Below, piece by piece: positions 3,109-14,695 of a DNA stretch of 41,553 nt; position 1 is the stretch's first letter, and each line of letters opens with the position of its first letter. The notes below the pieces were generated by a model, which saw only the letters and a program-made list of their open reading frames with translations, was not told the origin of the DNA and did not search any database. Position numbers and translations under genes: made by a program. The stretch is from Bacteroidota bacterium. GTDB taxonomy: Bacteria; Bacteroidota; Bacteroidia; Bacteroidales; F082. The DNA lies in assembly GCA_014382445.1 (NCBI GenBank), contig JACNJS010000027.1, positions 1 to 41,553 of the forward strand, given 5' to 3'.

Positions 3109-3183
3109 GGTCTGGTAGTTCAGTTTGGTTAGAATGCCTGCCTGTCACGCAGGAGGTCGCGGGTTCGAGTCCCGTCCAGACCG
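3109..3183 (+). tRNA. tRNA-Asp(GTC)
   Basis: A complete cloverleaf. The acceptor stem is GGTCTGG/CCAGACC with discriminator G. The anticodon stem is CCTGC/GCAGG around loop CTGTCAC, giving anticodon GTC. The T arm is GCGGG-TTCGAGT-CCCGT. CCA is not encoded. The last 16 bp of this gene are the left edge of the integration repeat that recurs at 13741, so this tRNA is the attachment site of the downstream element, and it stays intact after integration. Confidence 0.97.
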
Positions 3184-3186
3184 CAA

Positions 3187-3221
3187 AGCCTAATTAGTTT
3201 TCAGCTAGTTAGGCTTTTTTT
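3187..3221 (+). terminator. Rho-independent terminator of tRNA-Asp
   Basis: AGCCTAA and TTAGGCT pair around a short loop, followed by a T7 run. A diverged copy of the same hairpin lies at 13760-13792 next to the duplicated tRNA end. The element therefore appears to carry its own terminator, so tRNA transcription ends normally after integration. Confidence 0.85.
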
Positions 3222-3232
3222 ATGCCTATAAT

Positions 3233-3251
3233 CCCCACATCTTCCCCACAT
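3233..3251 (+). promoter_or_regulatory. Paired CCCCACAT motifs at left end
   Basis: CCCCACAT at 3233-3240 and 3244-3251, start-to-start spacing 11 bp, 48 bp inside the core. Matches the pair upstream of the integrase gene in sequence, orientation and spacing. Confidence 0.5.
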
Positions 3252-3450
3252 ATAGAAAAACTCGTCGATTTATGTCTTTATTTTTCATATTGAGAACAGG
3301 GTTATTTCATTGGGTTAAGTGATTCGATTAATATCCTCATCACATTATTCCAAAAATGCATAATTATGCTGTAGTGGCATAAACACTATTTCTATCCGGT
3401 AGAGTTTAATTGTGTATAAAACTTTTTATCTTTACATCGAATTTATAGTT

Positions 3451-3603
3451 ATGACGCCTAACCTAACGCCTGAACAGAAATCACGAGAGAAGATTGACAG
3501 GATGCTTAATGCTTCTGGCTGGATCATACAGGATATGAAAACCATTGACTTCTCTGTTAACACTGGTATAGCTGTTCGTGAGTATCAAACAGAAGTTGGT
3601 CAA
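3451..3603 (+). pseudogene. hsdR: N-terminal stub of type I restriction subunit HsdR
   Basis: From ATG 3451 the frame reads MTPNLTPEQKSREKIDRML and continues to REYQTEVG. This is the characteristic N-terminus of EcoEI-type HsdR (TPEQ-AR-KID-ML-ASGW, then AVREY-T). Homology stops at about codon 50, where the family continues into the nuclease core. The frame then runs on into unrelated sequence and stops at 3705. The intact protein is usually about 780 residues or more, so over 90 percent is missing. The break coincides with the start of the AbiJ-like tail, indicating a deletion of at least ~2.5 kb. A frame that also looks like the HsdR C-terminus lies at 13943-14032, outside the element. Confidence 0.85.
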
Positions 3604-3935
3604 ACACAACGGCCTTGTCTTTACTTTCCGATAGAAAAAATCCAGATTATCGAAATTCAATTAAAGAATCTATTTCAGCTATCGAATCTTTATGTAAAAT
3701 ATTAGTTGGAGACAATTCCAAAACATTAGGTAAAGCGCTAAAAGAACTACGAAAGAAATTTGAGATACCACCAAGTTTGTTAAAAGCATTTGATGCGATT
3801 TATGGATACACCTCATCTGAAGGAGGTATTCGTCATTCTTTATTGGAGGATGATATTACAGTAGGTCTTGAAGAAGCAAGGTTCATGCTTGTAGCCTGTT
3901 CGGCATTTACAAATTACCTCATATCAAAACAATAA
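3603..3935 (+). pseudogene. C-terminal remnant of AbiJ-like abortive infection protein
   Basis: In the frame that is +1 relative to the hsdR stub, the sequence reads TTALSLLSDRKNPDYRNSIK and goes on to GYTSSEGGIRHSLLEDD and MLVACSAFTNYLISKQ. This matches the C-terminal half of HEPN-like/AbiJ-type proteins often found beside restriction loci; intact relatives are roughly 250-300 residues. There is no ATG at the break. The only local start is TTG 3615 inside the conserved region, so this is probably not an independent gene. The fragment ends 4 bp before hsdS, implying an ancestral order hsdR, abiJ-like, hsdS. The family assignment is from memory of the motif. Confidence 0.7.
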
Positions 3936-3939
3936 TATT

Positions 3940-5376
3940 GTGAAGGGAAAGATTATACCAAATAGATGGGTAATCCATAAACTGGGGAATGTATGCAATA
4001 TATACCAGCCAAAGACTATTTCTAAGAATAATTTAGTTCCTAAGGGTCAATTCTTGGTCTATGGTGCTAACGGAGTAATAGGAAGGTTCGATGAGTTTAA
4101 TCATGTTGATAGCGAAATCCTAGTTACTTGCCGTGGAGCAACATGTGGTACAGTTAATGTTTCGGAACCTTATTCATGGATTAATGGAAATGCGATGGTT
4201 ATACAGCCGAAAATTGACCAGTTAACCAAGCCTTTTATTCGGTATTTTTTTGAATCAATTAACCTCTCAAAAGTAATTACTGGTTCTGCACAACCACAAA
4301 TAACAAGAACCTCAATTTCACCACTTGATTTTCCAATACCCCCTGTCCCCGAACAACACCTCATAGTAACCAAAATAGAAGAGTTGTTTTCCGAACTTGA
4401 CAATGCTGTAACTAACCTGAAAAAGGTCAAAGCACAGTTAAAGGTTTATCGTCAATCAGTATTGAAGTGGGCATTTGAGGGAAGGTTGACAGAGGAATGG
4501 AGGAAGAACAATAAGACTGAGCCTATCGAAAGTTTTATAGAGAGGATTAGTGAAGAGAAAGAGTGTAAGTATAATAAGCAGTTGGAGGTATGGGATGATA
4601 CTGTCAATGAATGGGAAAAGGGCGGTAGGCAAGGTAAAAGACCCAATAAGCCTAGTAAGATTAGTGAAATTCAAGAATTGTCAAAAGAGGAACTTAGCGG
4701 GCTTGAACAAATACCGAATAATTGGATTTGGGTTAGATTAGGTGAACTTACTTGGTCTGTTAAGGATGGCCCACACTATAGTCCTAAATATGAAGATGAG
4801 GGAATCCCATTTATCTCTGGAGGAAATGTTCGACCGGAAGGAGTTAATTTTGAAAATACAAAATACATATCAACAGACTTACATTATGAGTTAAGTAAAA
4901 GGTGTATACCTGAGTATGGCGACATTTTATATACAAAAGGGGGTACAACAGGTATTGCGAGAGTAAATACATACAAAATCGATTTCAATGTTTGGGTGCA
5001 CGTTGCTGTCTTAAAAATCACAAAATCGATTTATCCTTTCTACTTGCAAAATGTACTTAACTCACCATTTTGTTATAGACAATCACAGAAATACACTCAT
5101 GGTGTTGGTAACCAAGATTTGGGTTTAACAAGAATGGTGAACATTATTCTGCCCTTATGTTGTATAGAAGAGCAGCATCAAATTGTCAAAGAAATAGAAA
5201 ATCGTATCTCAGTAGCCGACAACCTTGAAATAACCATTGACCAAAGCCTTAAACAATCCGAAGCCCTCAGACAGTCCATCCTTAAACGAGCCTTTGAAGG
5301 TAAGCTTGTACCTCAAGACCCGAATGATGAGCCTGCTGAGGTGTTGTTGGAGAGTATAAAGCATAATCAACAATAA
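3940..5376 (+). CDS. hsdS: Type I restriction-modification specificity subunit HsdS
   Basis: A 478-residue DNA-recognition subunit for type I methyltransferase and restriction complexes. It has two target recognition domains (~10-145 and ~255-400), each followed by a conserved helical spacer: EEQHLIV-like PEQHLIVTKIEELFSELDNA with LKWAFEGRLTEEW at ~135-190, and EEQHQIVKEIENRI with ILKRAFEGKLVPQDP near the end. Full length for the family, with both half-sites intact. The start is GTG 3940, just after the AbiJ-like stop. With HsdM it should give an M2S methyltransferase recognising a bipartite site. Because the hsdR gene is destroyed, it would methylate without cutting unless HsdR is supplied from elsewhere. 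Confidence 0.93.
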   Translation: MKGKIIPNRWVIHKLGNVCNIYQPKTISKNNLVPKGQFLVYGANGVIGRFDEFNHVDSEILVTCRGATCGTVNVSEPYSWINGNAMVIQPKIDQLTKPFIRYFFESINLSKVITGSAQPQITRTSISPLDFPIPPVPEQHLIVTKIEELFSELDNAVTNLKKVKAQLKVYRQSVLKWAFEGRLTEEWRKNNKTEPIESFIERISEEKECKYNKQLEVWDDTVNEWEKGGRQGKRPNKPSKISEIQELSKEELSGLEQIPNNWIWVRLGELTWSVKDGPHYSPKYEDEGIPFISGGNVRPEGVNFENTKYISTDLHYELSKRCIPEYGDILYTKGGTTGIARVNTYKIDFNVWVHVAVLKITKSIYPFYLQNVLNSPFCYRQSQKYTHGVGNQDLGLTRMVNIILPLCCIEEQHQIVKEIENRISVADNLEITIDQSLKQSEALRQSILKRAFEGKLVPQDPNDEPAEVLLESIKHNQQ

Positions 5377-5389
5377 TTATCTTTGAACC

Positions 5390-6907
5390 ATGAAAGTTGA
5401 GCAAATACCCGATAAGATTACTGCCATAATAAGAAAAGGTGAAGGAATTGATATTGAATTTAAAACTGCACAGTTTGAATTAAGCAGAGATACTTTTGAT
5501 TCAATATGTGCCTTTCTTAATCGTAATGGAGGACATCTTTTGCTTGGGATTGATGATGATGGTCAAATACAAGGCGTTATTGATGATTGTGTGCAGCCAA
5601 TCATAGATGGTATTGTTATAAATGCCAATAATCCACAAAAACTAAACCCTCCGTTTTATCTTTCACCAAAAGTATATGAGGACAAGAATGGTAAGAAGAT
5701 AATTTATGTTTTTATTCCTGAGAGCTCACAAGTTCATAACACCGTTGGTAAAATATTTGACAGAAATGAAGATGGTGATTTTGATGTAACAAGGAATAAT
5801 GAACATCTTGCACAGTTGTATTCCCTGAAAAAGACAACTTATTCTGAGAATAAAATCTATCCTTATCTTACCATTGATGATTTTGTAGATGATCTTTTTC
5901 ATCGTGTTAGAAGCCTCGCCAGTAGTCAAAGGCCTGACCATTCATGGTTGGAGATGTCAAATAAAGAATTACTGAAATCGGCATCACTTTACAGAAAAGA
6001 CTTTCAAACAGGAGAAGAAGGTTTCACATTGGCATCTGCATTATTATTTGGTAAGGATGAGGTAATACATAATATCGTTCCGCATTACAGGATAGATGCT
6101 ATTCTCAGAGAGAGTAATGTTGATCGTTATGATGACAGAGATGACATAAGAACCAACTTAATCGACAGTTATGACAGGCTTATGGCATTCACTCGCAAAC
6201 ATTTACCCGATGTGTTTTATCAGGAGGATGATCACAGGATCAGTCCCCGAGATATAATTTTTCGTGAAGTTGTTGGAAATATGCTGATTCATCGTGAGTA
6301 CAATAATGCTTATCCGGCAAAATTCATTATTGAACAGGAAAGAGTGGTAACTGAAAACTGGAATCGTCCTCATGGATTGGGTAATATTGATCCTGAATTT
6401 TTCTCGCCTTATCCCAAGAATCCTGTTATTGCTAAGTTTTTCAGAGAAATAGGCAGGGCTGAGGAACTTGGTTCAGGAGTTAGAAATACTCATAAGTATT
6501 GTGAAGTATATACAAAGGGACGTAGACCTGAGTTTATTGAAGGAGATGTATTTGTAACAACTATTCCTATACCATTCATAGATACTGTAACAAAAATAGG
6601 AGGTGTTAGAATTGAGGGAGCTACAGAGGGAGCTGTTAAGGGAGTAATTGATGCTGTAAATGATGCTGTAAATGATGCTGTAGGTGATGCTGTAAGAAAG
6701 AGGCTTGTTAAAGAATTACTTTTAATGATAAAACAAGGAGGAATAACTCTTGAGGAAACTAAAAATGAATTTAATATTGAGAGAGCTACAGTGCAAAGGG
6801 ATATGAAAATATTGAAAGAAATTGGGTTTGTAAATTTCATCGGCTCACCAAAATCAGGTAAATATATGGCAACACCCAAAATAATTTCAATAGTCGAAAA
6901 ACGATAA
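5390..6907 (+). CDS. Schlafen AlbA-2/ATPase-type putative transcriptional regulator
   Basis: 505 residues. The N-terminal AlbA-2 domain (~10-150) contains IDIEFKTAQFELSRDTFDS and GGHLLLGIDDDGQIQGV. The middle (~280-380) is the HATPase-like region of this family, with REVVGNMLIHREYNN and AEELGSGVRNTHKY. The C-terminus has a winged HTH (ITLEETKNEFNIERATVQRD). Between them lies a DAVN-type four-residue repeat encoded by four 12-bp direct repeats (6650-6697). It sits between hsdS and hsdM with 13-bp and 1-bp gaps, so it is co-transcribed. Proteins of this family are often called transcriptional regulators but their role in type I loci is not settled. It could regulate the locus or take part in defence. 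Confidence 0.85.
   Translation: MKVEQIPDKITAIIRKGEGIDIEFKTAQFELSRDTFDSICAFLNRNGGHLLLGIDDDGQIQGVIDDCVQPIIDGIVINANNPQKLNPPFYLSPKVYEDKNGKKIIYVFIPESSQVHNTVGKIFDRNEDGDFDVTRNNEHLAQLYSLKKTTYSENKIYPYLTIDDFVDDLFHRVRSLASSQRPDHSWLEMSNKELLKSASLYRKDFQTGEEGFTLASALLFGKDEVIHNIVPHYRIDAILRESNVDRYDDRDDIRTNLIDSYDRLMAFTRKHLPDVFYQEDDHRISPRDIIFREVVGNMLIHREYNNAYPAKFIIEQERVVTENWNRPHGLGNIDPEFFSPYPKNPVIAKFFREIGRAEELGSGVRNTHKYCEVYTKGRRPEFIEGDVFVTTIPIPFIDTVTKIGGVRIEGATEGAVKGVIDAVNDAVNDAVGDAVRKRLVKELLLMIKQGGITLEETKNEFNIERATVQRDMKILKEIGFVNFIGSPKSGKYMATPKIISIVEKR
6650..6697 (+). repeat. 12-bp in-frame minisatellite in the AlbA-type gene
   Basis: Four consecutive units of GATGCTGTAaat (third position variants ggt, aga) encode DAVN-DAVN-DAVG-DAVR. 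The unit is a multiple of three, so copy-number change would alter linker length without breaking the frame. Confidence 0.9.
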
Positions 6908-6908
6908 A

Positions 6909-8384
6909 ATGAACACAACAACAATAGTAAATAAAGTATGGTCTTACTGTAATGTCCTTAGGGATGATGGAGTAAGTTATGGTGATTACCTTGAGCAGAT
7001 AACCTACCTGCTCTTCCTTAAAATGGCTGATGAGTATTCTAAGCCACCTTATAACCGGATTATAGATATACCTGAAGAATATAATTGGGATAGCCTTAAA
7101 GCAAAACGTGGAGCAGAATTAGAAGTTCATTACATTAGTCTTTTACGTACATTAGGAACGCAAAAAGGTATGTTAGGACAAATATTCGTTAAGTCCCAAA
7201 ACAAGATACAAGACCCATCAAAATTGTTCCAGATTATTGACATGATAGACAATGAGCAATGGGTAATGATGGGCTCTGATGTAAAGGGAGATATTTACGA
7301 AGGATTACTTGAGAAGAATGCTGAGGACACAAAGAGTGGGGCTGGGCAATACTTCACTCCAAGAGCCTTGATTAGGGCAATGGTAGAGTGTTTAGCCCCT
7401 GAACCAATGAAGACTATAGCTGATAGTTCATGTGGTACAGGTGGCTTCTTCTTAGCTTCTTATGATTACCTACTCGGAAATTACAAATTAGATAAGGATC
7501 AGAAAGATTTCCTTAAACACAAAACTTTTACGGGTAACGAAATAGTAGCTAATACAAGGCGGTTGTGCCTGATGAATATGTTCCTTCACAACATAGGTGA
7601 GATGACCGGAGAGAGCATGATTTCGCCAAATGACTCACTGCTATCTGACAGTGGTGAGAGGGTAGACTACGTGCTTACAAATCCCCCTTTCGGAAAGAAG
7701 AGTTCCATGACCATAACCAATGAAGAAGGGGAGCAAGTAACGGAAGATAAAAATTACATTCGACAGGACTTTTGGGCAACTACCTCAAATAAGCAATTGA
7801 ACTTTGTGCAACATATAAGAACCTTGCTTAAAACTACAGGCAAAGCCGCAGTAGTTGTTCCTGACAATGTTCTGTTTGAAGGCGGAGCAGGAGAAACTGT
7901 ACGTAAGAAGTTAATGCAAAATACAGATGTTCATACCATACTAAGGTTGCCTACAGGTTTGTTCTATGCTCAGGGTGTGAAAGCTAATGTGATATTCTTT
8001 GACAACAAACCGGCAAGCAAAGAACATTGGACAAAAGAGGTCTGGTATTACGATCTCAGAACTAATAAGCACTTCACTTTAAAGACCAGCCCTTTGAAGT
8101 TAGATGATCTGAAGGACTTCATTAAGTGCTATAGCTCAGGAAACAAACATAAGCGTAAGGAAACATGGTCAGAGGAGCATCCTGATGGTAGATGGAGAAA
8201 GTACACCTACGATGAGATATTGGCTCGTGATAAGACTAGTCTGGATATATTCTGGGTAAAAGATGATAGCCTTGCCGATCTTGATAACCTGCCTGCCCCT
8301 GATGTGTTGGCTGATGAAATTATTGAGAACCTTCGGGCAGGTTTGGAGGCGTTTAGTGTGGTAAGGAATGGATTGACTGATTAA
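6909..8384 (+). CDS. hsdM: Type I DNA methyltransferase subunit HsdM
   Basis: 491 residues. N-terminal helical domain (YLEQITYLLFLKMADE), then the N6-adenine methyltransferase core. SAM-binding motif I is DSSCGTGGF at residues 172-180, the conserved AGQYFTPR is at 145-152, and the catalytic NPPF is at 258-261. The length is normal for EcoEI-type HsdM and no lesion is seen. It begins one base after the stop of the AlbA-type gene, so translation is probably coupled. The only partner left in the locus is HsdS, which suggests a functional orphan methyltransferase. No hsdR follows: the next 85 bp are non-coding and then an HTH gene begins. Confidence 0.95.
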   Translation: MNTTTIVNKVWSYCNVLRDDGVSYGDYLEQITYLLFLKMADEYSKPPYNRIIDIPEEYNWDSLKAKRGAELEVHYISLLRTLGTQKGMLGQIFVKSQNKIQDPSKLFQIIDMIDNEQWVMMGSDVKGDIYEGLLEKNAEDTKSGAGQYFTPRALIRAMVECLAPEPMKTIADSSCGTGGFFLASYDYLLGNYKLDKDQKDFLKHKTFTGNEIVANTRRLCLMNMFLHNIGEMTGESMISPNDSLLSDSGERVDYVLTNPPFGKKSSMTITNEEGEQVTEDKNYIRQDFWATTSNKQLNFVQHIRTLLKTTGKAAVVVPDNVLFEGGAGETVRKKLMQNTDVHTILRLPTGLFYAQGVKANVIFFDNKPASKEHWTKEVWYYDLRTNKHFTLKTSPLKLDDLKDFIKCYSSGNKHKRKETWSEEHPDGRWRKYTYDEILARDKTSLDIFWVKDDSLADLDNLPAPDVLADEIIENLRAGLEAFSVVRNGLTD

Positions 8385-8469
8385 AATACTACTTCTATGG
8401 CATCTTAGTAATACTCAAAGATATTTTTTTTCTGTAGATTTATGCGTTAAATCTTAATGATCTGAAACC

Positions 8470-8772
8470 ATGAATAATCCATTTGAAACTCTAGAACAAA
8501 AGCTATCAGTTATCGAGCAGAAACTTGATAACTTGATACAGAAAATTGATGATCCACAATCTTCATCCCCAACTTGGATAACATCAAAACAGTTAGCGAA
8601 ATACCTTGGAATATCAACCACTACTGTCAATAAGTTACGCAGTAGTAAATTACCTTACTATAAATTAGGGGGGAGGATATATTTTAAAAAGCAAGAAGTT
8701 GATGAGTGGATGGAAAAAACCAGACATAAATCGGGCGGCGAATACTTGAACGAATACTTAGGCTTACGATAA
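8470..8772 (+). CDS. Excisionase-like helix-turn-helix protein
   Basis: 100 residues. A short N-terminal coiled coil (LEQKLSVIEQKLDNLIQKI) is followed by a MerR/excisionase-type HTH-17 domain: WITSKQLAKYLGISTTTVNK, then YYKLGGRIYFKKQEVDEWM. Such proteins in Bacteroidota elements act as excision or transcription factors. Its stop codon overlaps the start of the next gene (TAATG), so the two are translationally coupled. Confidence 0.85.
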   Translation: MNNPFETLEQKLSVIEQKLDNLIQKIDDPQSSSPTWITSKQLAKYLGISTTTVNKLRSSKLPYYKLGGRIYFKKQEVDEWMEKTRHKSGGEYLNEYLGLR

Positions 8773-9500
8773 TGGAAGAAAAAGTACTGAAAGAAATAAG
8801 AGAGATTAAGAAGTTGCTTTCAGAAATGCTTGGAACTTCTGATCTTCCGACCAAAGAAAAGTTCTCGAAGGAAGCCATAACCAAAGCCGCAAAAGAATAC
8901 CGTAAAATGGCCATAGAGAGAGGTGAATGGCTTCCTGATGATGAAATACGTAAAGTTATAAGGAAAGCCCCTTGGAGGTCAGGAAAGGTAATAATAGAGA
9001 AGTTTGGGTTCACAAACTATTTTAAGAGAGGGCATACTTTCTATTTCAGTAAAAAAGACCTTATTGCACTCAATGTTGTATTAAAGAAAAAGAATATAAA
9101 CTTAGCTGAATACTGTGAATTACTTGATGATCAGGCTAACTTTGAGAAATATCGTCAGAGGGCGAATCAAACTGATGGGAGAAAATCAAAGATAAGGTTC
9201 AGGATTCCTGAGGGACTAGAAGGATTAAACTCTAAGCACTATCCTCCTCCCTCTGAAGAAGCAATTATCAACGAAATAGCTAACTATATGGAAGAGGTTA
9301 AGAAATTTGACCTATCCGAGTATATTAGTTTTGCTGAAAAGAATACTTACGCATGGTTCAAATATGATTATAGTTTGGATAGATACGTAGACTCTAAGCT
9401 GAAGAAATATTGTAAGGATTGGTGTTTTAAGTTTAACTATGCAAATAATGCTTTGAAGAAAATAAGGAAGATAGAATCAGGGGATGATAGGCAGTATTAG
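8772..9500 (+). CDS. Unknown 242-residue protein coupled to the HTH gene
   Basis: I do not recognise a family. The protein begins with a charged helix (MEEKVLKEIREIKKLLSEML) reminiscent of the coiled coil in the HTH partner. It has a middle region with YFKRGHTFYFSKKDLIALN and a C-terminus rich in Lys, Tyr and Trp/Phe (WFKYDYSLDRY, CKDWCFKFNYAN). The start ATG overlaps the preceding stop by one base. No signal peptide or membrane segment. The coupling suggests the pair acts together in element maintenance. Confidence 0.7.
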   Translation: MEEKVLKEIREIKKLLSEMLGTSDLPTKEKFSKEAITKAAKEYRKMAIERGEWLPDDEIRKVIRKAPWRSGKVIIEKFGFTNYFKRGHTFYFSKKDLIALNVVLKKKNINLAEYCELLDDQANFEKYRQRANQTDGRKSKIRFRIPEGLEGLNSKHYPPPSEEAIINEIANYMEEVKKFDLSEYISFAEKNTYAWFKYDYSLDRYVDSKLKKYCKDWCFKFNYANNALKKIRKIESGDDRQY

Positions 9501-9542
9501 TTATTGGCTTTATATTAGATCAAATTCTCTGCGATACTTTGT

Positions 9543-9857
9543 TCATATCTCAGTCCTAATCTCCATCAAAATACTTTGGAATTTCGATTCACATATCTCG
9601 GAAGGCTTACGAGGAGAGTCTGGAAATGGAGCAAGTAGGCTTACTATGATTTCTTGAGCAGCTTCCTCTATCATGTTGTGTTTAGTAATGAAGTTACTTT
9701 TCACTGATAGAGCAAACTCCACTGTTGTCTCCACATTCTTTCTGAGAAGCCCTTGCTCATGCAATCTGAGTAGGTTTTGAGGTTCATAATCTCTCATCCA
9801 TATCAGCCTTGTCATGGCTTCAGGAGTGTCAATAATTGGGATTATACTTTTATTCAT
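9543..9857 (-). CDS. Hypothetical protein downstream of rep
   Basis: 104 residues, soluble and predicted mostly helical (TPEAMTRLIWMRDYEPQNLL; MIEEAAQEIIVSLLAPFPDS). No recognised domain. It begins 84 bp after the end of the rep gene on the same strand. The gap contains the 10-bp palindrome TAGCATGCTA (9894-9903). Codon use and the upstream context suggest a real small gene of the element. Confidence 0.6.
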   Translation of the reverse strand: MNKSIIPIIDTPEAMTRLIWMRDYEPQNLLRLHEQGLLRKNVETTVEFALSVKSNFITKHNMIEEAAQEIIVSLLAPFPDSPRKPSEICESKFQSILMEIRTEI

Positions 9858-9893
9858 TTCAGTTTGATATGTTTGCTAATTTACTCAATAATG

Positions 9894-9903
9894 TAGCATG
9901 CTA
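9894..9903. other. 10-bp palindrome between rep and downstream gene
   Basis: TAGCATGCTA is a perfect palindrome in the 84-bp gap after rep. It could be part of an origin or a regulator site, but nothing besides position supports this. Confidence 0.25.
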
Positions 9904-9941
9904 ACGTACAATGTAATATATGTGATATGTGATTTAGGGTG

Positions 9942-10991
9942 TTATTGGAGTGTTGTATCTATGTTATTGTAAAGTAGATTCTGAAGGTGTGGGTCTAATT
10001 GAAAATCGGCAAACACTTGTCCAGTGAACTCGCTATACCAATCTGCATTTGAAGGGTCGTAAATCCAAATGTCGTAGTCTGTAACACTTGCAATCTTGGT
10101 TTCATGTTCTATTGTTGTCTGTGGTAGGTTAAAACCAAACCGGTCAAAGATTCGGTGATCTTTCATTGTAGAGAGGATGTTATACATTGCTGCTACATAT
10201 ATTTTTGGGGATATTTTTCTTGAAGCCTTGTTTTTTAAGTCAGGTTCTGTAAATATCTTAGTACCATATTTAATGATTTCGATGAGGCTGCTTTCTATAC
10301 TGCTTATTTTGCGAATATCTTGACACCATGCCTCATTATGCTTTTTAGTCCAAATGTCTAACCAGTCTGTTTTCAATTGTAGGGCTATTTCCTTATTGGG
10401 AACAATGATGTGGTAGTGAGGATTATAAGTTTTCGTAACTGGGTTAAAATTGCATTCTAAAGACTTTATACCTATTAGTTTGATGCCTTTACCCCGCTGA
10501 TGCCTTTTTTTATTACGTTCTTTAATCTTTCCGAAAGCTCTCACCATGCCATCTATCATAATCGGTAATCTTTTAGCTGAGCATGCCCTGATTGTGAGGG
10601 TAACAAAGTGAGGGTCTTCCCATGAGCTTAATACCGGTAGGTATTTATTAATCATTTCTGCTTTACGTATTCCAAGGCATATAGTGCAATATCTATTCTT
10701 GCAATACTTACTGTAAATACGTTTCTCATAAGTAATAAGTTTGTTTTGACAGTAGTATGTATTCCATAATGATTTCTCCATTACAATATCATTTTTCTTC
10801 TTGGCGACATCAATTAAACTCAATATCATTTTTTGCGTGATAATTTTCTTTTTCGCTTTCCTGCTTAATTCACCCCTATTGCTTGGTTTTGAGCCATTTC
10901 CTCCAATCAGAACAGATGGTAATGTAGTATGAGCTGTCCCGCTTTGTGCTAATGTATTGAATTGCCCCTCCTGAAGGTTACCTCTTTCCAT
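9942..10991 (-). CDS. rep: Rolling-circle replication initiator (Rep_1-like)
   Basis: 349 residues. A Cys-rich segment, KYCKNRYCTICLGIRKAEM (Cys97, 102, 105), resembles the zinc-like motif of plasmid Rep_1 proteins. Motif 1 is HFVTLTIRA (129-133). Motif 2 is the metal-binding HUH pair in YNPHYHIIVPN (His192, His194). Motif 3 is EIIKYGTK with a candidate catalytic Tyr242. By family knowledge these proteins nick the double-strand origin and stay bound to the 5' end through the tyrosine. It lies 2 bp after an HTH gene on the same strand. Finding it in a tRNA-integrated element suggests rolling-circle replication of the excised circle. It might instead act as a relaxase for mobilisation. Confidence 0.85.
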   Translation of the reverse strand: MERGNLQEGQFNTLAQSGTAHTTLPSVLIGGNGSKPSNRGELSRKAKKKIITQKMILSLIDVAKKKNDIVMEKSLWNTYYCQNKLITYEKRIYSKYCKNRYCTICLGIRKAEMINKYLPVLSSWEDPHFVTLTIRACSAKRLPIMIDGMVRAFGKIKERNKKRHQRGKGIKLIGIKSLECNFNPVTKTYNPHYHIIVPNKEIALQLKTDWLDIWTKKHNEAWCQDIRKISSIESSLIEIIKYGTKIFTEPDLKNKASRKISPKIYVAAMYNILSTMKDHRIFDRFGFNLPQTTIEHETKIASVTDYDIWIYDPSNADWYSEFTGQVFADFQLDPHLQNLLYNNIDTTLQ

Positions 10992-10993
10992 CG

Positions 10994-11305
10994 TTATACC
11001 CTTTCTTTTAAAGCGGGATCAACGTCTGAACGACGGTAGCGTACTTGGTTACCGATTTTAAGGTTTGCTAATGTTCCATTTTTGTTCCAGTGGTGCAGGG
11101 TAGGTAAGGAAACTTTTAGAATGTCGGAGACTTGTGCTCTGGTAAGAAGCTCTTCAGGTTTGTTTAATCCCTTTAAGATACGAGTAGTTTCTTTGGTAGT
11201 ATCTCTAACCAACTTTTCTGCGAAAGTGATTAGGTCAAACCCATTAAGACTCACTGAAAGTTGCTTTGCTATTTCTGGGTTTGATCTTAAAAAATCTAGT
11301 TTCAT
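10994..11305 (-). CDS. Helix-turn-helix protein, excisionase/MerR-like
   Basis: 103 residues with a C-terminal HTH-17-type domain: LLTRAQVSDILKVSLPTLHH, then KIGNQVRYRRSDVD. The N-terminal half is helical. It lies immediately upstream of rep with a 2-bp gap, so it probably shares its transcript and may control rep or assist excision. Proteins of this type next to integrases in Bacteroidota elements often serve as recombination directionality factors. Confidence 0.85.
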   Translation of the reverse strand: MKLDFLRSNPEIAKQLSVSLNGFDLITFAEKLVRDTTKETTRILKGLNKPEELLTRAQVSDILKVSLPTLHHWNKNGTLANLKIGNQVRYRRSDVDPALKERV

Positions 11306-11384
11306 ATCAATTAATTTTGATGTAAAACTCGTGTTAATCGAATCCGAGAAAGTGACCTAGGTAACTTGGTGAGTTAGGGTACTC

Positions 11385-12218
11385 TTATAAAAAGTTAAAT
11401 AAACTACAGTACTGTTCAATTTCTGCTCTTTGGCCAAATTTGAAAAAGTGACCACTTGACTTATACTTGAAATATTCTCCAAAAGAAATTGATATTTCTT
11501 TGTCGGTGTATGCCTTTCTTAGGTATTTTCCGTCTTGTATTTTGAGAGATAAAGCTGCAAGCAGTTTTTCTTTGGGATTTCGAGAAGTAGCTGCTATGAC
11601 TTTGCCTTTCCATACACCATCTATGATAAACCCTCTATCGGTTAATGTTTGAGTAATTTCATTCAGCACGTTAACATCAATGAACATTTCTTCTAAGGTT
11701 ATATTTTTCTCTGATTTAACCTTGTGTTTCGTAAACTTCTCACCCTCACTTGCAATAAAACTATTAACAGTTATGTCCACATCCTCTTTGGATACAAGTA
11801 ATGTGTCCTCAGTTATGAATCTTTCTATTTCAGCAACGGTTATCGGAATGTTAAGGATGCTCTTCCCTATAGGAATATTAAGTGATCTGCCACCCGTAAT
11901 ACTCTCTTTCAAAAGAGTTTTTCTGTATGGTTCAGATGTAATTAGATTCTTTATCAGATCAACTAGTGGTGCTATCATTAGCTCTGACTTTTTGGTTATT
12001 TTATCATCTTTTTTGACCAAACCAATACCTAAAAGTGCAAGCCCTCCAACAAAGTCAATGATAATATTTTTCTCAATAGACTTATCTGCTTCAAGGTAGG
12101 TATCAACTATGATGATCAGCGATTCGAGTTTTATGAAGATGTTTTTGTAAAATGGGTCTTCGTTGCACCAAAAGTTAGTTTCTCTTAAAAGGACTTCATT
12201 TATTGGATTATACTCCAT
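11385..12218 (-). CDS. Unknown 277-residue protein beside integrase
   Basis: No family recognised. The N-terminal half is helical and partly hydrophobic (IIIDFVGGLALLGIGLVKK). The C-terminal part contains FIIDGVWKGKVIAATSRNPK and a Tyr/Phe-rich end (GHFFKFGQRAEIEQYCSLF). It starts 49 bp downstream of the integrase stop on the same strand. In related Bacteroidota elements the gene after the integrase is commonly an accessory factor, but that is inference from position only. Confidence 0.65.
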   Translation of the reverse strand: MEYNPINEVLLRETNFWCNEDPFYKNIFIKLESLIIIVDTYLEADKSIEKNIIIDFVGGLALLGIGLVKKDDKITKKSELMIAPLVDLIKNLITSEPYRKTLLKESITGGRSLNIPIGKSILNIPITVAEIERFITEDTLLVSKEDVDITVNSFIASEGEKFTKHKVKSEKNITLEEMFIDVNVLNEITQTLTDRGFIIDGVWKGKVIAATSRNPKEKLLAALSLKIQDGKYLRKAYTDKEISISFGEYFKYKSSGHFFKFGQRAEIEQYCSLFNFL

Positions 12219-12267
12219 TATATCAGCGTTTATTGAGGTTGTGGTTAATTTTGAATTATACGGTCGA

Positions 12268-13536
12268 CTACTTAACTACTGATAAATGACTACCTGTTTT
12301 TAACCAAATATCCCTTAGTTTATGTGCCTGCTCTTCTTTGGTCATCTTAATATATTTCATAAATGATGATTCTGTTTTATGCCCTGTCATTGCCATAATA
12401 GTAATTGTTGGAATATCATCCTTAAACATATTTGTTGCGAATGATCTTCTGGCTAAATGTGTAGATACTAACTGCCATTTTTTTAAAAATATTGTTTCCT
12501 TCTTTCCAGCTTTGGTGATATGTTTAGTGACACCTTCTTTGAATTTGGCCTCTTTAGCAATATCTCTAAGATACTCATTGAACTTATTATTTGAAATTGG
12601 TTTGGGTAGATTATAGTCATATTTGTTGAGAATGGATTCAACAACAGGGTGTAAAGGAATCATTACAAAGCTGGAGGTCTTATCCTGCTGATATTTTAGA
12701 AAGCCATTATTGATATTTTCTTGCCTGACATGTTTCAAATCCGCAAATCTTATTCCTGTCCAGCAAGCGACTAAGAATAAATCTCGAATGTGTTCCAAGT
12801 GCGAAGTCTTTGATAGGTTCATCTCAAATAATTTTTGAAGCTCTTCTTTGTTCAGATAAATGCTTTCGCTTTCTTCTGTTAAAACCTTAAAATCTTTAAA
12901 CTGATCACTGGAAATAAACTCAGGAGTAGCGGCATTAAGAAAAACCTTCAATACCTTTATTTTTTTTCCAATAGTGTTTAGTGCATATTCCTTTTCAAAT
13001 GTTAGGTATAGTACAAAATTGTCGTAAAACTTTTTTGTCATATCTCGGAAGCTATATTCCTCCTTTCCACTATAGGTTGTAAAGCTTTTTAAGTCTTCAA
13101 AAGTCTTGGTATAGTCTTGTATTGTTCTTGTTGATGCTATATGTCCTGATGGTAGTATTCTTTGCGGAGCTCTATCAATAAAGTCTTGAATAAAAGTAAA
13201 CAAAGTAGCAGTCTTTATTTTATACTTGTTGGGTTTGTTAAACTTGTCAATAGTCAGCCTAAGCCAAGTGCCAGAAGGGTCTTCCGTAATGCCTTTATAC
13301 TCTGATAGAATCCATTTTTCTAAATCTTTTAATTTATCACTATCTTTATCTTTGTCCTTGTTTGCAGCCCTTTGCCTTATCTTGTGTGTCTCATTACTGA
13401 AATAGTCCGGTAATACTTCAATTCCTGTTTTTGCAGTTAAATCAACTTTCCGTCCATCTTTGAGTCGAACATAAATGTTAACTCTTTTTGAAGGTTTTTT
13501 TTTGGGAGGTCTGGTAAAAAAAATAATTGATGCCAT
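12268..13536 (-). CDS. int: Tyrosine recombinase/integrase
   Basis: 422 residues with Bacteroidota integrase architecture. There is an N-terminal arm-binding domain (~10-110), a SAM-like core-binding domain (~110-210) and a C-terminal catalytic domain. Visible catalytic residues are Arg263 in WTGIRFADL, His360 and Arg363 in THLARRSF, His386 in MTGHKTES and the nucleophile Tyr395 in SFMKYIKM. The family joins the circular form to a target, here the tRNA-Asp 3' end duplicated at 3168 and 13741. The gene is last in the element, 205 bp from the right core. Upstream lie two CCCCACAT motifs 11 bp apart. Confidence 0.96.
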   Translation of the reverse strand: MASIIFFTRPPKKKPSKRVNIYVRLKDGRKVDLTAKTGIEVLPDYFSNETHKIRQRAANKDKDKDSDKLKDLEKWILSEYKGITEDPSGTWLRLTIDKFNKPNKYKIKTATLFTFIQDFIDRAPQRILPSGHIASTRTIQDYTKTFEDLKSFTTYSGKEEYSFRDMTKKFYDNFVLYLTFEKEYALNTIGKKIKVLKVFLNAATPEFISSDQFKDFKVLTEESESIYLNKEELQKLFEMNLSKTSHLEHIRDLFLVACWTGIRFADLKHVRQENINNGFLKYQQDKTSSFVMIPLHPVVESILNKYDYNLPKPISNNKFNEYLRDIAKEAKFKEGVTKHITKAGKKETIFLKKWQLVSTHLARRSFATNMFKDDIPTITIMAMTGHKTESSFMKYIKMTKEEQAHKLRDIWLKTGSHLSVVK

Positions 13537-13586
13537 TTTGATTGTCTTTATAAAATCAATGCAAAGCTAATCAAATATATTTCTTT

Positions 13587-13605
13587 CCCCACATTTTCCC
13601 CACAT
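13587..13605 (+). promoter_or_regulatory. Paired CCCCACAT motifs, candidate integrase arm sites
   Basis: CCCCACAT occurs at 13587-13594 and 13598-13605, 11 bp apart. The same pair with the same spacing is at the left end (3233-3240, 3244-3251), and a single copy is in the right-hand repeat (13805-13812). A one-turn spacing near both ends and next to int suggests arm-type binding sites. This is inference. Confidence 0.5.
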
Positions 13606-13740
13606 TTAGTTAATCTAATGAAATCTTAATTAATCTTACTTAATCATATGTGATTTACAGAAGTGCTGTAAATACTGCATTATAGGATAATTTGGTCATG
13701 TTTCCAGTATGTTAGGATTTTGCAAAAATTAACTCTGAGT

Positions 13741-13946
13741 AGTCCCGTCCAGACCGCAGAGCCTAATTAGTTTTCAGCTAGTTAGGTTTTTTTATGTCTA
13801 TTTTCCCCACATAAAGAAAAACTCATCAATTTTTGTCTTTATTTTTCATATTGAGAACTAAGTTATTTCATTAGTTAAACTATTCATAACCACATACATT
13901 ATTTTGATAGAGTATAATTATACTTTAGGGATATAATCACTATTTC
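13741..13946 (+). repeat. Right integration repeat: attR plus a second left end
   Basis: It begins with the exact 18-bp tRNA-Asp end and continues with a diverged version of the whole left end of the element: terminator hairpin, one CCCCACAT, TCTTTATTTTTCATATTGAG, ATAATTAT and CACTATTTC. The element itself cannot supply a second left end on its right side, so I infer that this is the left end of another, related element lying in tandem. The homology stops at 13946, exactly where HsdR-like coding sequence begins. Confidence 0.8.
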
Positions 13947-14032
13947 AGGGTGGTATTGGTAAGATATTTCAGTTGTTTGGGAGCGAAATGGAGAAGGTGG
14001 CGGATGAGTTGAGTGAGGCACTAGTAGCCTGA
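13943..14032 (+). pseudogene. C-terminal remnant of a second HsdR
   Basis: Reading from 13943 gives FQGGIGKIFQLFGSEMEKV and then ADELSEALVA and a stop at 14030-14032. This resembles the extreme C-terminus of EcoEI-type HsdR proteins (GGLGK-QLFG, then ELNE-LA). It has no start and is preceded by a stop at 13934. It is fused directly to the duplicated element left end. In the intact element hsdR sat next to that same end, so this is most simply an internal deletion in a tandem relative. The assignment rests on ~30 residues recalled from the family. Confidence 0.6.
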
Positions 14033-14158
14033 TTACTAATGGTAGTACATGAGGAAGTTTTGACAACCTTAGTTTATTACCCTTTACATTATATATATCC
14101 CTAATTATATGACAAAATATTGTAGTTTTATCCCTCAGTTTATAACAAATATAGTAAT

Positions 14159-14443
14159 ATGTTTCATCGTACAATCATAGAGGATTTCAAAAAATGGGCG
14201 GCAAAACCCGAAAGTAGGCCGCTTGTTCTAAGGGGGGCAAGACAAGTGGGTAAGACCACTGCTGTTAAAATATTTGCTAAAGAATATGATATTTTCATTT
14301 ATCTTAACCTTGAAAAAGCGGAGGAACGCAATATTTTTGAAGGTGATTATCCTTTTAGCGATTTGTTGAACAGGCTATTTCTACATGTAGGCAAAGAAAG
14401 AAATGCAGGGAGAGTGCTGATTTTTATTGATATAATCAAATAG
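14159..14443 (+). pseudogene. Truncated AAA/DUF4143-type ATPase
   Basis: 94 residues. P-loop GARQVGKTTAVKIFAKEY and strand IYLNLEKAEERNIFEGD. The frame breaks off at the Walker B site: it reads LIFIDIIK where the full-length paralogue at 32198 has LLFIDEIQ. The family is normally about 380-450 residues with a C-terminal DUF4143 nuclease-like domain, which is absent here. The N-terminus is intact with its own ATG. Likely non-functional debris left at the edge of the tRNA-Asp island. Confidence 0.85.
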
Positions 14444-14470
14444 AAGCTGAAAACCACTATGGACAACTAG

Positions 14471-14695
14471 ACAAAACTAAAAAACCTTTATGTTAATAAC
14501 CATCTAAGCAAGGGGGATCTGGTTTCACCTCAACGTTGGTTAGATGCAGTAGAAGCAATAGACAAGATACTGCTTCAGTACCTACCTCAGTACATCAAGC
14601 AGCTAAAGTTTTTGAATAATATACCCAAAGAATGTTTTGAAGATGAAATATATAATCTCTTTGGGGTTAGTTCCCCGAAGCTCTACTTCGTTTAA
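14471..14695 (+). pseudogene. Unidentified gene remnant
   Basis: An open frame of 74 codons without an ATG, containing KGDLVSPQRWLDAVEAIDKI and IPKECFEDEIYNLFG. It looks protein-like but I do not recognise it. Its last codons run into the palindromic repeat at 14663-14750, so the original C-terminus is gone. Confidence 0.35.

Follow-up and report, generated by a model that had tools for sequence, protein, structure and literature searches.

Probable tandem accretion of two related integrative elements at a tRNA-Asp gene in a Bacteroidales genome

Why should sequence resembling the left end of an integrative element occur a second time, beyond the right boundary of that element? The question is raised by a stretch of 41,553 nt (the window; contig JACNJS010000027.1 of GenBank assembly GCA_014382445.1, a Bacteroidota bacterium of the Bacteroidales lineage F082), in which an element designated as B is inserted at tRNA-Asp and a divergent copy of its left end, joined to the last codons of an hsdR gene, lies just outside. 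The original prediction, made from this DNA alone, had attributed the outer copy to a second element with the same left-end organization, here designated as element A. This attribution was supported by a junction found in a genus-mate (G003), by the terminators of two others (G001 and G004), and by an element-end motif in the scar; that two related integrative elements came to be stacked at tRNA-Asp by tandem accretion, in the order proposed below, is in our judgement highly probable. The tRNA-Asp site would then keep a layered record of past insertions.

Two left ends behind one tRNA-Asp gene

Element B spanned nt 3168–13758 and was bounded on both sides by direct repeats of the tRNA 3′ end, an exact 18-bp core (AGTCCCGTCCAGACCGCA) consisting of the final 17 bases of tRNA-Asp plus one A. 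Exactly two copies of this core were present in the window (chance expectation 0.00); allowing up to 3 mismatches added no further copy, and hence no third core to the right of the scar. On insertion, B would have restored the 3′ end of tRNA-Asp; its right core, now attR of B, presumably served earlier as attL of the older element A.

Homology continued past the core, as the original prediction had held, with both boundaries unchanged: nt 3168–3392 (225 bp) and nt 13741–13946 (206 bp) aligned locally over their full length, from the core to CACTATTTC on both sides (score 218). With the core excluded, the score was 185, whereas none of 500 dinucleotide shuffles scored above 37; with both core and terminator hairpin excluded it was 138, the best of 500 shuffles reaching 29. 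The homology extended about 170 bp beyond the hairpin in left coordinates. The two copies were 77–78% identical (blastn), with several indels, which argues, as the original prediction had held, against a recent duplication. The exact repeats common to both were only 18–27 bp long. Two related element ends are parted here by the target core, the arrangement by which tandem accretion is recognized, and what is left of A is a fragment of about 290 bp.

The left copy was followed by an hsdR N-terminus and the right copy was joined to an HsdR C-terminus, both as anticipated. For comparison, five HsdR loci were picked from 17 PF08463 matches and fetched at length; two more (L067 and L072) gave no open reading frame (ORF) of 750 aa. 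Residues 4–50 of the B-side product were 43–74% identical to HsdR N-termini in 5/5 hsd operon loci, and the peptide encoded by nt 13943–14032 was 52–67% identical over 27–28 residues to 5/5 HsdR ORFs, with the same final residue. The two pieces stood in the right order and frame, and the G003 stretch homologous to the scar-side piece scored 42.5 bits on PF08463 (cut-off 24). No tRNA-Asp was found in the five HsdR-relative loci (G005, G028, G074, G010 and G032). The closest relative, G028 (N-terminus 74% identical), lies behind tRNA-Asn, and its hsdR (L080:10020–10600) contains an in-frame stop, being another broken hsdR beside a tRNA.

Each end of B contained a single occurrence of the paired motif CCCCACATNTTCCCCACAT, and no other was present in the window when up to 2 mismatches were allowed (chance 0.00); the scar kept one of its two motif copies. 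The paired motif probably represents the arm-type sites of the B integrase. The exact 18-base paired motif occurred 7 times in 6 of 173 family genomes (reversed control, 0). Four of these occurrences lay a short way upstream of a related integrase (B, G040, G172 and G176) and two were in left ends (B and G003). In G040, the motif was located 47 bp upstream of an integrase 31% identical to that of B; in G172 and G176, a 29% match to the B integrase begins about 115 bp from the motif, and these two loci may be copies of one event because their match coordinates are identical. The seventh, in G155, was placed in neither group; a terminator-like hairpin precedes it.

The outer copy in genus-mates and its possible origins

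The tRNA region was searched in 8 genomes of the genus, of which 6, this genome included, gave matches. In G001 and G004, tRNA-Asp was followed by mutually similar terminators (AGAAGGGGAGC..GCTTCCC and GAGAAAGGGAAGC..CTTCCC), unlike the element type (AGCCTAATTAG...TTAGGCT), and this comparison marks the resident element as foreign to the site. G001 possessed about 165 bp of its own DNA after tRNA-Asp and then rejoined the window at about nt 14060, upstream of the AAA_14 gene, with ComEC on the right in both. G003 carried on one contig the last 11 core bases (the tRNA being cut by the contig end), an element-type terminator, 79 bp of the left end at 94% identity, a long ORF that appears Fic-like by eye, about 50 codons of an HsdR C-terminus, and then the same chromosomal DNA as in the window; HsdR C-terminus and flank shared 87% DNA identity over 215 bp (nt 13945–14158). 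No match to the B integrase was found in G003 at E 1e-30. Since the junction between HsdR and chromosome is common to G003 and this genome, it is older than their split. The different terminators of G001 and G004, together with the left end, HsdR and chromosome junction of G003, support the view that the scar is the remnant of an old element that was cut before B arrived.

The strongest alternative, although improbable and disfavoured on the sequences compared, holds that the right copy is native DNA downstream of tRNA-Asp, a stretch of which was captured by B in a single integration. It would account for the terminator hairpin being the best-conserved shared part, as a tRNA gene would have one, and two elements of the survey below (L112 and L126), which share only a terminator across both cores (46 and 51 bp), fit such capture of a host terminator; moreover, terminators after tRNA-Asp vary among the genus-mates, which leaves the native type uncertain. 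However, G001 and G004 have another terminator type in common, the match of G001 starts only at nt 14060, the homology runs far past the hairpin and includes the element-end motif, and HsdR sequence comes next after the right copy. If an element supplies a terminator along with the tRNA end, as we infer, this would also explain the conservation of the hairpin.

Duplication of one element's end within this genome, by misrepair or homologous recombination, would yield copies of the same sequence family, order and strand, as observed. We regard it as very unlikely: the identity of 77–78% and the indels argue against a recent event, G003 has the scar-side junction yet no match to the B integrase, and such an event would also have to account for another core placed precisely at the tRNA boundary. 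An assembly artefact joining two loci, conceivable in a draft of 97 contigs, is hardly credible given copies that differ by about 22%, exact shared repeats of only 18–27 bp, a right-hand junction recurring in G003, and ComEC on the right in both the window and G001.

By tandem accretion, the locus would have been built in four steps. Element A would have inserted at the 3′ end of tRNA-Asp together with a terminator, left end and hsdR of its own. A deletion in the common ancestor with G003, beginning shortly after the hsdR stop and reaching about 165 bp into the native sequence, would then have removed the right core of A and so locked it in. A second deletion, in the present lineage, would have taken most of hsdR and joined CACTATTTC to its last 29 codons; because the scar junction shares by eye at most 1–2 bp with the G003 hsdR, end joining seems likelier here than homologous recombination. 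Finally B, whose left end is of the same type, would have recombined with the core carried by the tRNA (attL of A at that time) and come to lie between the tRNA and the left end of A. The hsdR of B itself runs out of frame into a truncated defence gene. Having no right core, A probably cannot excise. B may still be able to do so, because it retains both cores and the paired end motifs, its integrase gene is open, and it encodes excisionase-like HTH proteins as well as a Rep_1 protein.

Several observations weigh against tandem accretion or weaken its support. A search of the 173 family genomes, counting this one, found no intact element with this left end followed by a full hsdR. In G003 the left end and the HsdR C-terminus stand about 2.3 kb apart, with a different ORF between them, so that an hsdR directly after the left end of A is inferred rather than seen. 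Of the arrangement to be looked for in related genomes, the left end followed by hsdR, G003 thus has both pieces, but not side by side and not in an intact element. The left end was matched over more than 36 bp only in this genome and G003 among the 173, G003 matching only 79 bp of it, and the same two alone emerged from a 100-genome set (overlapping the 173, this genome included); the other matches were 24–36 bp. The HsdR pieces of A and B come from opposite ends of the protein, with no common stretch over which their relatedness could be measured. As for the motif, its single copy TTCCCCACAT occurred 7 times in the window at up to 1 mismatch, a number reached by 4/100 shuffles, and the longest word common to both ends of B (10 bp) was within the range of shuffles (11), which only the tandem arrangement exceeded. 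The native terminator type rests on G001 and G004 because G005 and G006 are uninformative, carrying two further unrelated terminators after tRNA-Asp and ending soon after; in G006, ComEC is on the opposite side of the tRNA. Lastly, in 11 of the 16 surveyed elements described below, homology beyond the right core was not above the shuffle maximum.

Two further features of G003 were observed. A Schlafen/AlbA_2 fragment (L017:4814–5053) about 97% identical in DNA to nt 6299–6534 of the window lies less than 200 bp from the HsdR remnant, in the place where the AAA_14 gene would be; this high identity suggests a recent exchange at the locus between this species and G003. In addition, a GIY-YIG-like gene, named from sequence, ends beside a copy of the tRNA-Asp 3′ end (L017:7650–7812), as if it were a small insertion at the same target.

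Stacking in the integrase family and in known systems

Integrases related to that of B were detected in 24/149 genomes (E 1e-30) and in 12/393 genomes of the order (E 1e-60), this genome being in both sets. Beyond these, searches of named genome contigs and of viral contigs each gave one locus (46% and 25% identity, respectively), the integrase being the only window protein matched in either. Examination of 36 loci (the window included; L120, a cut second fetch of G105, was not counted) plus L085 gave 16 distinct elements with a resolvable core, 13 by exact repeats, G105, and L103 and L107 with mismatches; L124 was excluded, its possible tRNA-Ser core having 4/18 mismatches. Fifteen of the 16 were at a tRNA called by ARAGORN (Asp, Leu, Arg, Gln, Pro, Phe or Cys) and none was called for L108. 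The distance from core to integrase start was 119–220 bp. An exact tandem motif of 6–10 bp with a period of 11–12 bp was present at both ends in 9/16, a state reached by at most 1/200 mononucleotide shuffles per element, and absent from 7/16. The nine motifs were all different, with those of L102 (TTGCACGC) and G105 (TTGCACCGAC) being similar.

Stacking was assessed by comparing the sequences that follow the left and the right core on their right-hand sides. The two flanks were homologous over 80 bp or more in 3/16 elements, namely this window (tRNA-Asp), G105 (tRNA-Arg) and G081/L115 (tRNA-Cys). The outer left end of G105 was identical in 100/130 columns and possessed the paired motif TGTAACCACC in place of TTGCACCGAC, and its inner element resembled B in geometry, with a core offset of 206 from the integrase start (205 in B) and a paired motif at both ends; in G081/L115, 59/80 columns were identical. 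In all three cases the integrase-bearing element adjoined the tRNA, and no further core was found to the right (rest of the window, about 15 kb in G105, about 4 kb in L115). On these two grounds the outer copies look like degraded remnants, and remnants on the outside are expected if each newcomer enters the tRNA-borne core. The survey, though small, suggests that such scars are not rare in this integrase family. The G105 element (L085:7699–14939) also encodes D5_N/DUF5906 primase-helicase-like and DUF6371 proteins, a phage-satellite-like replication set.

The process itself is already known. PMC5704250 describes tandem accretion and cis-mobilizable elements (CIMEs), and calls tandems with generally decayed elements frequent. 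A CIME retains both attL and attR, whereas element A, with only two cores in the window, has no right core and persists as a fixed scar. In Dehalococcoides, according to PMC3146451, many islands are stacked behind ssrA, parted by copies of its 3′ end, and some are without integrases; the likeness lies in stacking behind one RNA gene with 3′-end copies between, and the difference in their serine recombinase and reductive dehalogenase cargo. The integrases of NBU1 and CTnDOT are placed in one group in PMC8138268, and NBU1 inserts at the 3′ end of a tRNA-Leu gene (PMC8138268 and PMC5704250); arm-type sites of IntDOT have reportedly been described, to go by a cited title. The B integrase, which may belong to the IntCTnDOT group, is likewise a Bacteroidetes tyrosine integrase with a tRNA 3′ end as target. 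Unlike these systems, B has a Rep_1 protein and defence cargo, and no relaxase family was matched in a Pfam scan of 12 element ORFs (oriT was not searched).

The present locus adds a new and well-resolved example, its scar being smaller than a CIME: a clean layered insertion at a tRNA gene, in which genus-mates date the scar before the newer insertion. Scars past a right core are open to systematic search, 3/16 here, from which past element traffic could be reconstructed, and old and new integrase-site motifs can be compared through them. We offer only as a tentative idea, more doubtful than not, that the element-specific paired motifs diverge faster than the surrounding ends, and that such turnover could keep successive related elements at a shared tRNA from recombining each other's ends; if true, stacked scars would be a readable record of arm-site change.

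Gene content of element B and its flanks

The features of the locus are listed in Table 1. The integrase gene of B starts about 204–205 bp from the right core. In an alignment of 34 integrases, B's included (L120 and L131 were excluded by length), no fewer than 32 shared each of its residues R251, K286, H360, R363, H386 and Y395, which we take to be the catalytic set of tyrosine recombinases.

Table 1. Coordinates of features at the tRNA-Asp locus
Feature	Position (nt)	Strand	Remarks
tRNA-Asp (GTC)	3109–3184	+	integration target; ARAGORN
Left core (attL) of element B, AGTCCCGTCCAGACCGCA	3168–3185	+	exact repeat at 13741–13758
Left end of element B	3186–3392	+	terminator hairpin (to about 3221; -17.1 kcal/mol), then part shared with scar
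Paired motif CCCCACATCTTCCCCACAT, left end	3233–3251	+	probable integrase arm-type sites
hsdR start	3451–3600	+	first ~50 codons from ATG at 3451, then out-of-frame fusion
PDC-S32 phage-defence candidate, C-terminal part	3615–3935	+	profile 178–280 of 285; PADLOC; DUF4145 match below its cut-off
hsdS, type I specificity subunit	3940–5376	+	
Schlafen/AlbA_2 domain protein	5390–6907	+	within the operon
hsdM, type I methyltransferase	6909–8384	+	82% identical to G028 over residues 113–489
HTH_17/excisionase-like protein	8470–8772	+	TIGR01764 over cut-off
Unknown protein	8772–9500	+	no family match
Unknown protein	9543–9857	-	no family match
Rep_1 family replication protein	9942–10991	-	
HTH_17/excisionase-like protein	10994–11305	-	relatives in G121 and G105 elements
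Unknown protein	11385–12218	-	no family match
Tyrosine integrase of element B	12268–13536	-	PF00589 4.1e-11, PF13102 2e-9; no stops inside
Paired motif CCCCACATTTTCCCCACAT, right end	13587–13605	+	about 50 bp from integrase start
Right core, attR of B	13741–13758	+	exact repeat of left core
Scar of element A	13759–13946	+	terminator hairpin, one surviving motif copy (13803–13812), left-end homology to CACTATTTC
Last 29 codons of element A hsdR plus stop, FQGGIGKIFQLFGSEMEKVADELSEALVA	13943–14032	+	
Chromosomal flank	14060–14443	+	upstream region and truncated AAA_14 gene (446 aa in G001)

The type I restriction-modification system of B was not intact, hsdM and hsdS being present with hsdR cut to about 50 codons, and the hsdM/hsdS pair probably methylates without restricting. 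In nt 3451–3935, an apparent single deletion disabled two defence genes (hsdR and PDC-S32) and left hsdM and hsdS open. In the right flank, the AAA_14 ATPase gene (nt 14159–14487) was cut by an internal deletion to 94 aa, versus 446 aa in G001.

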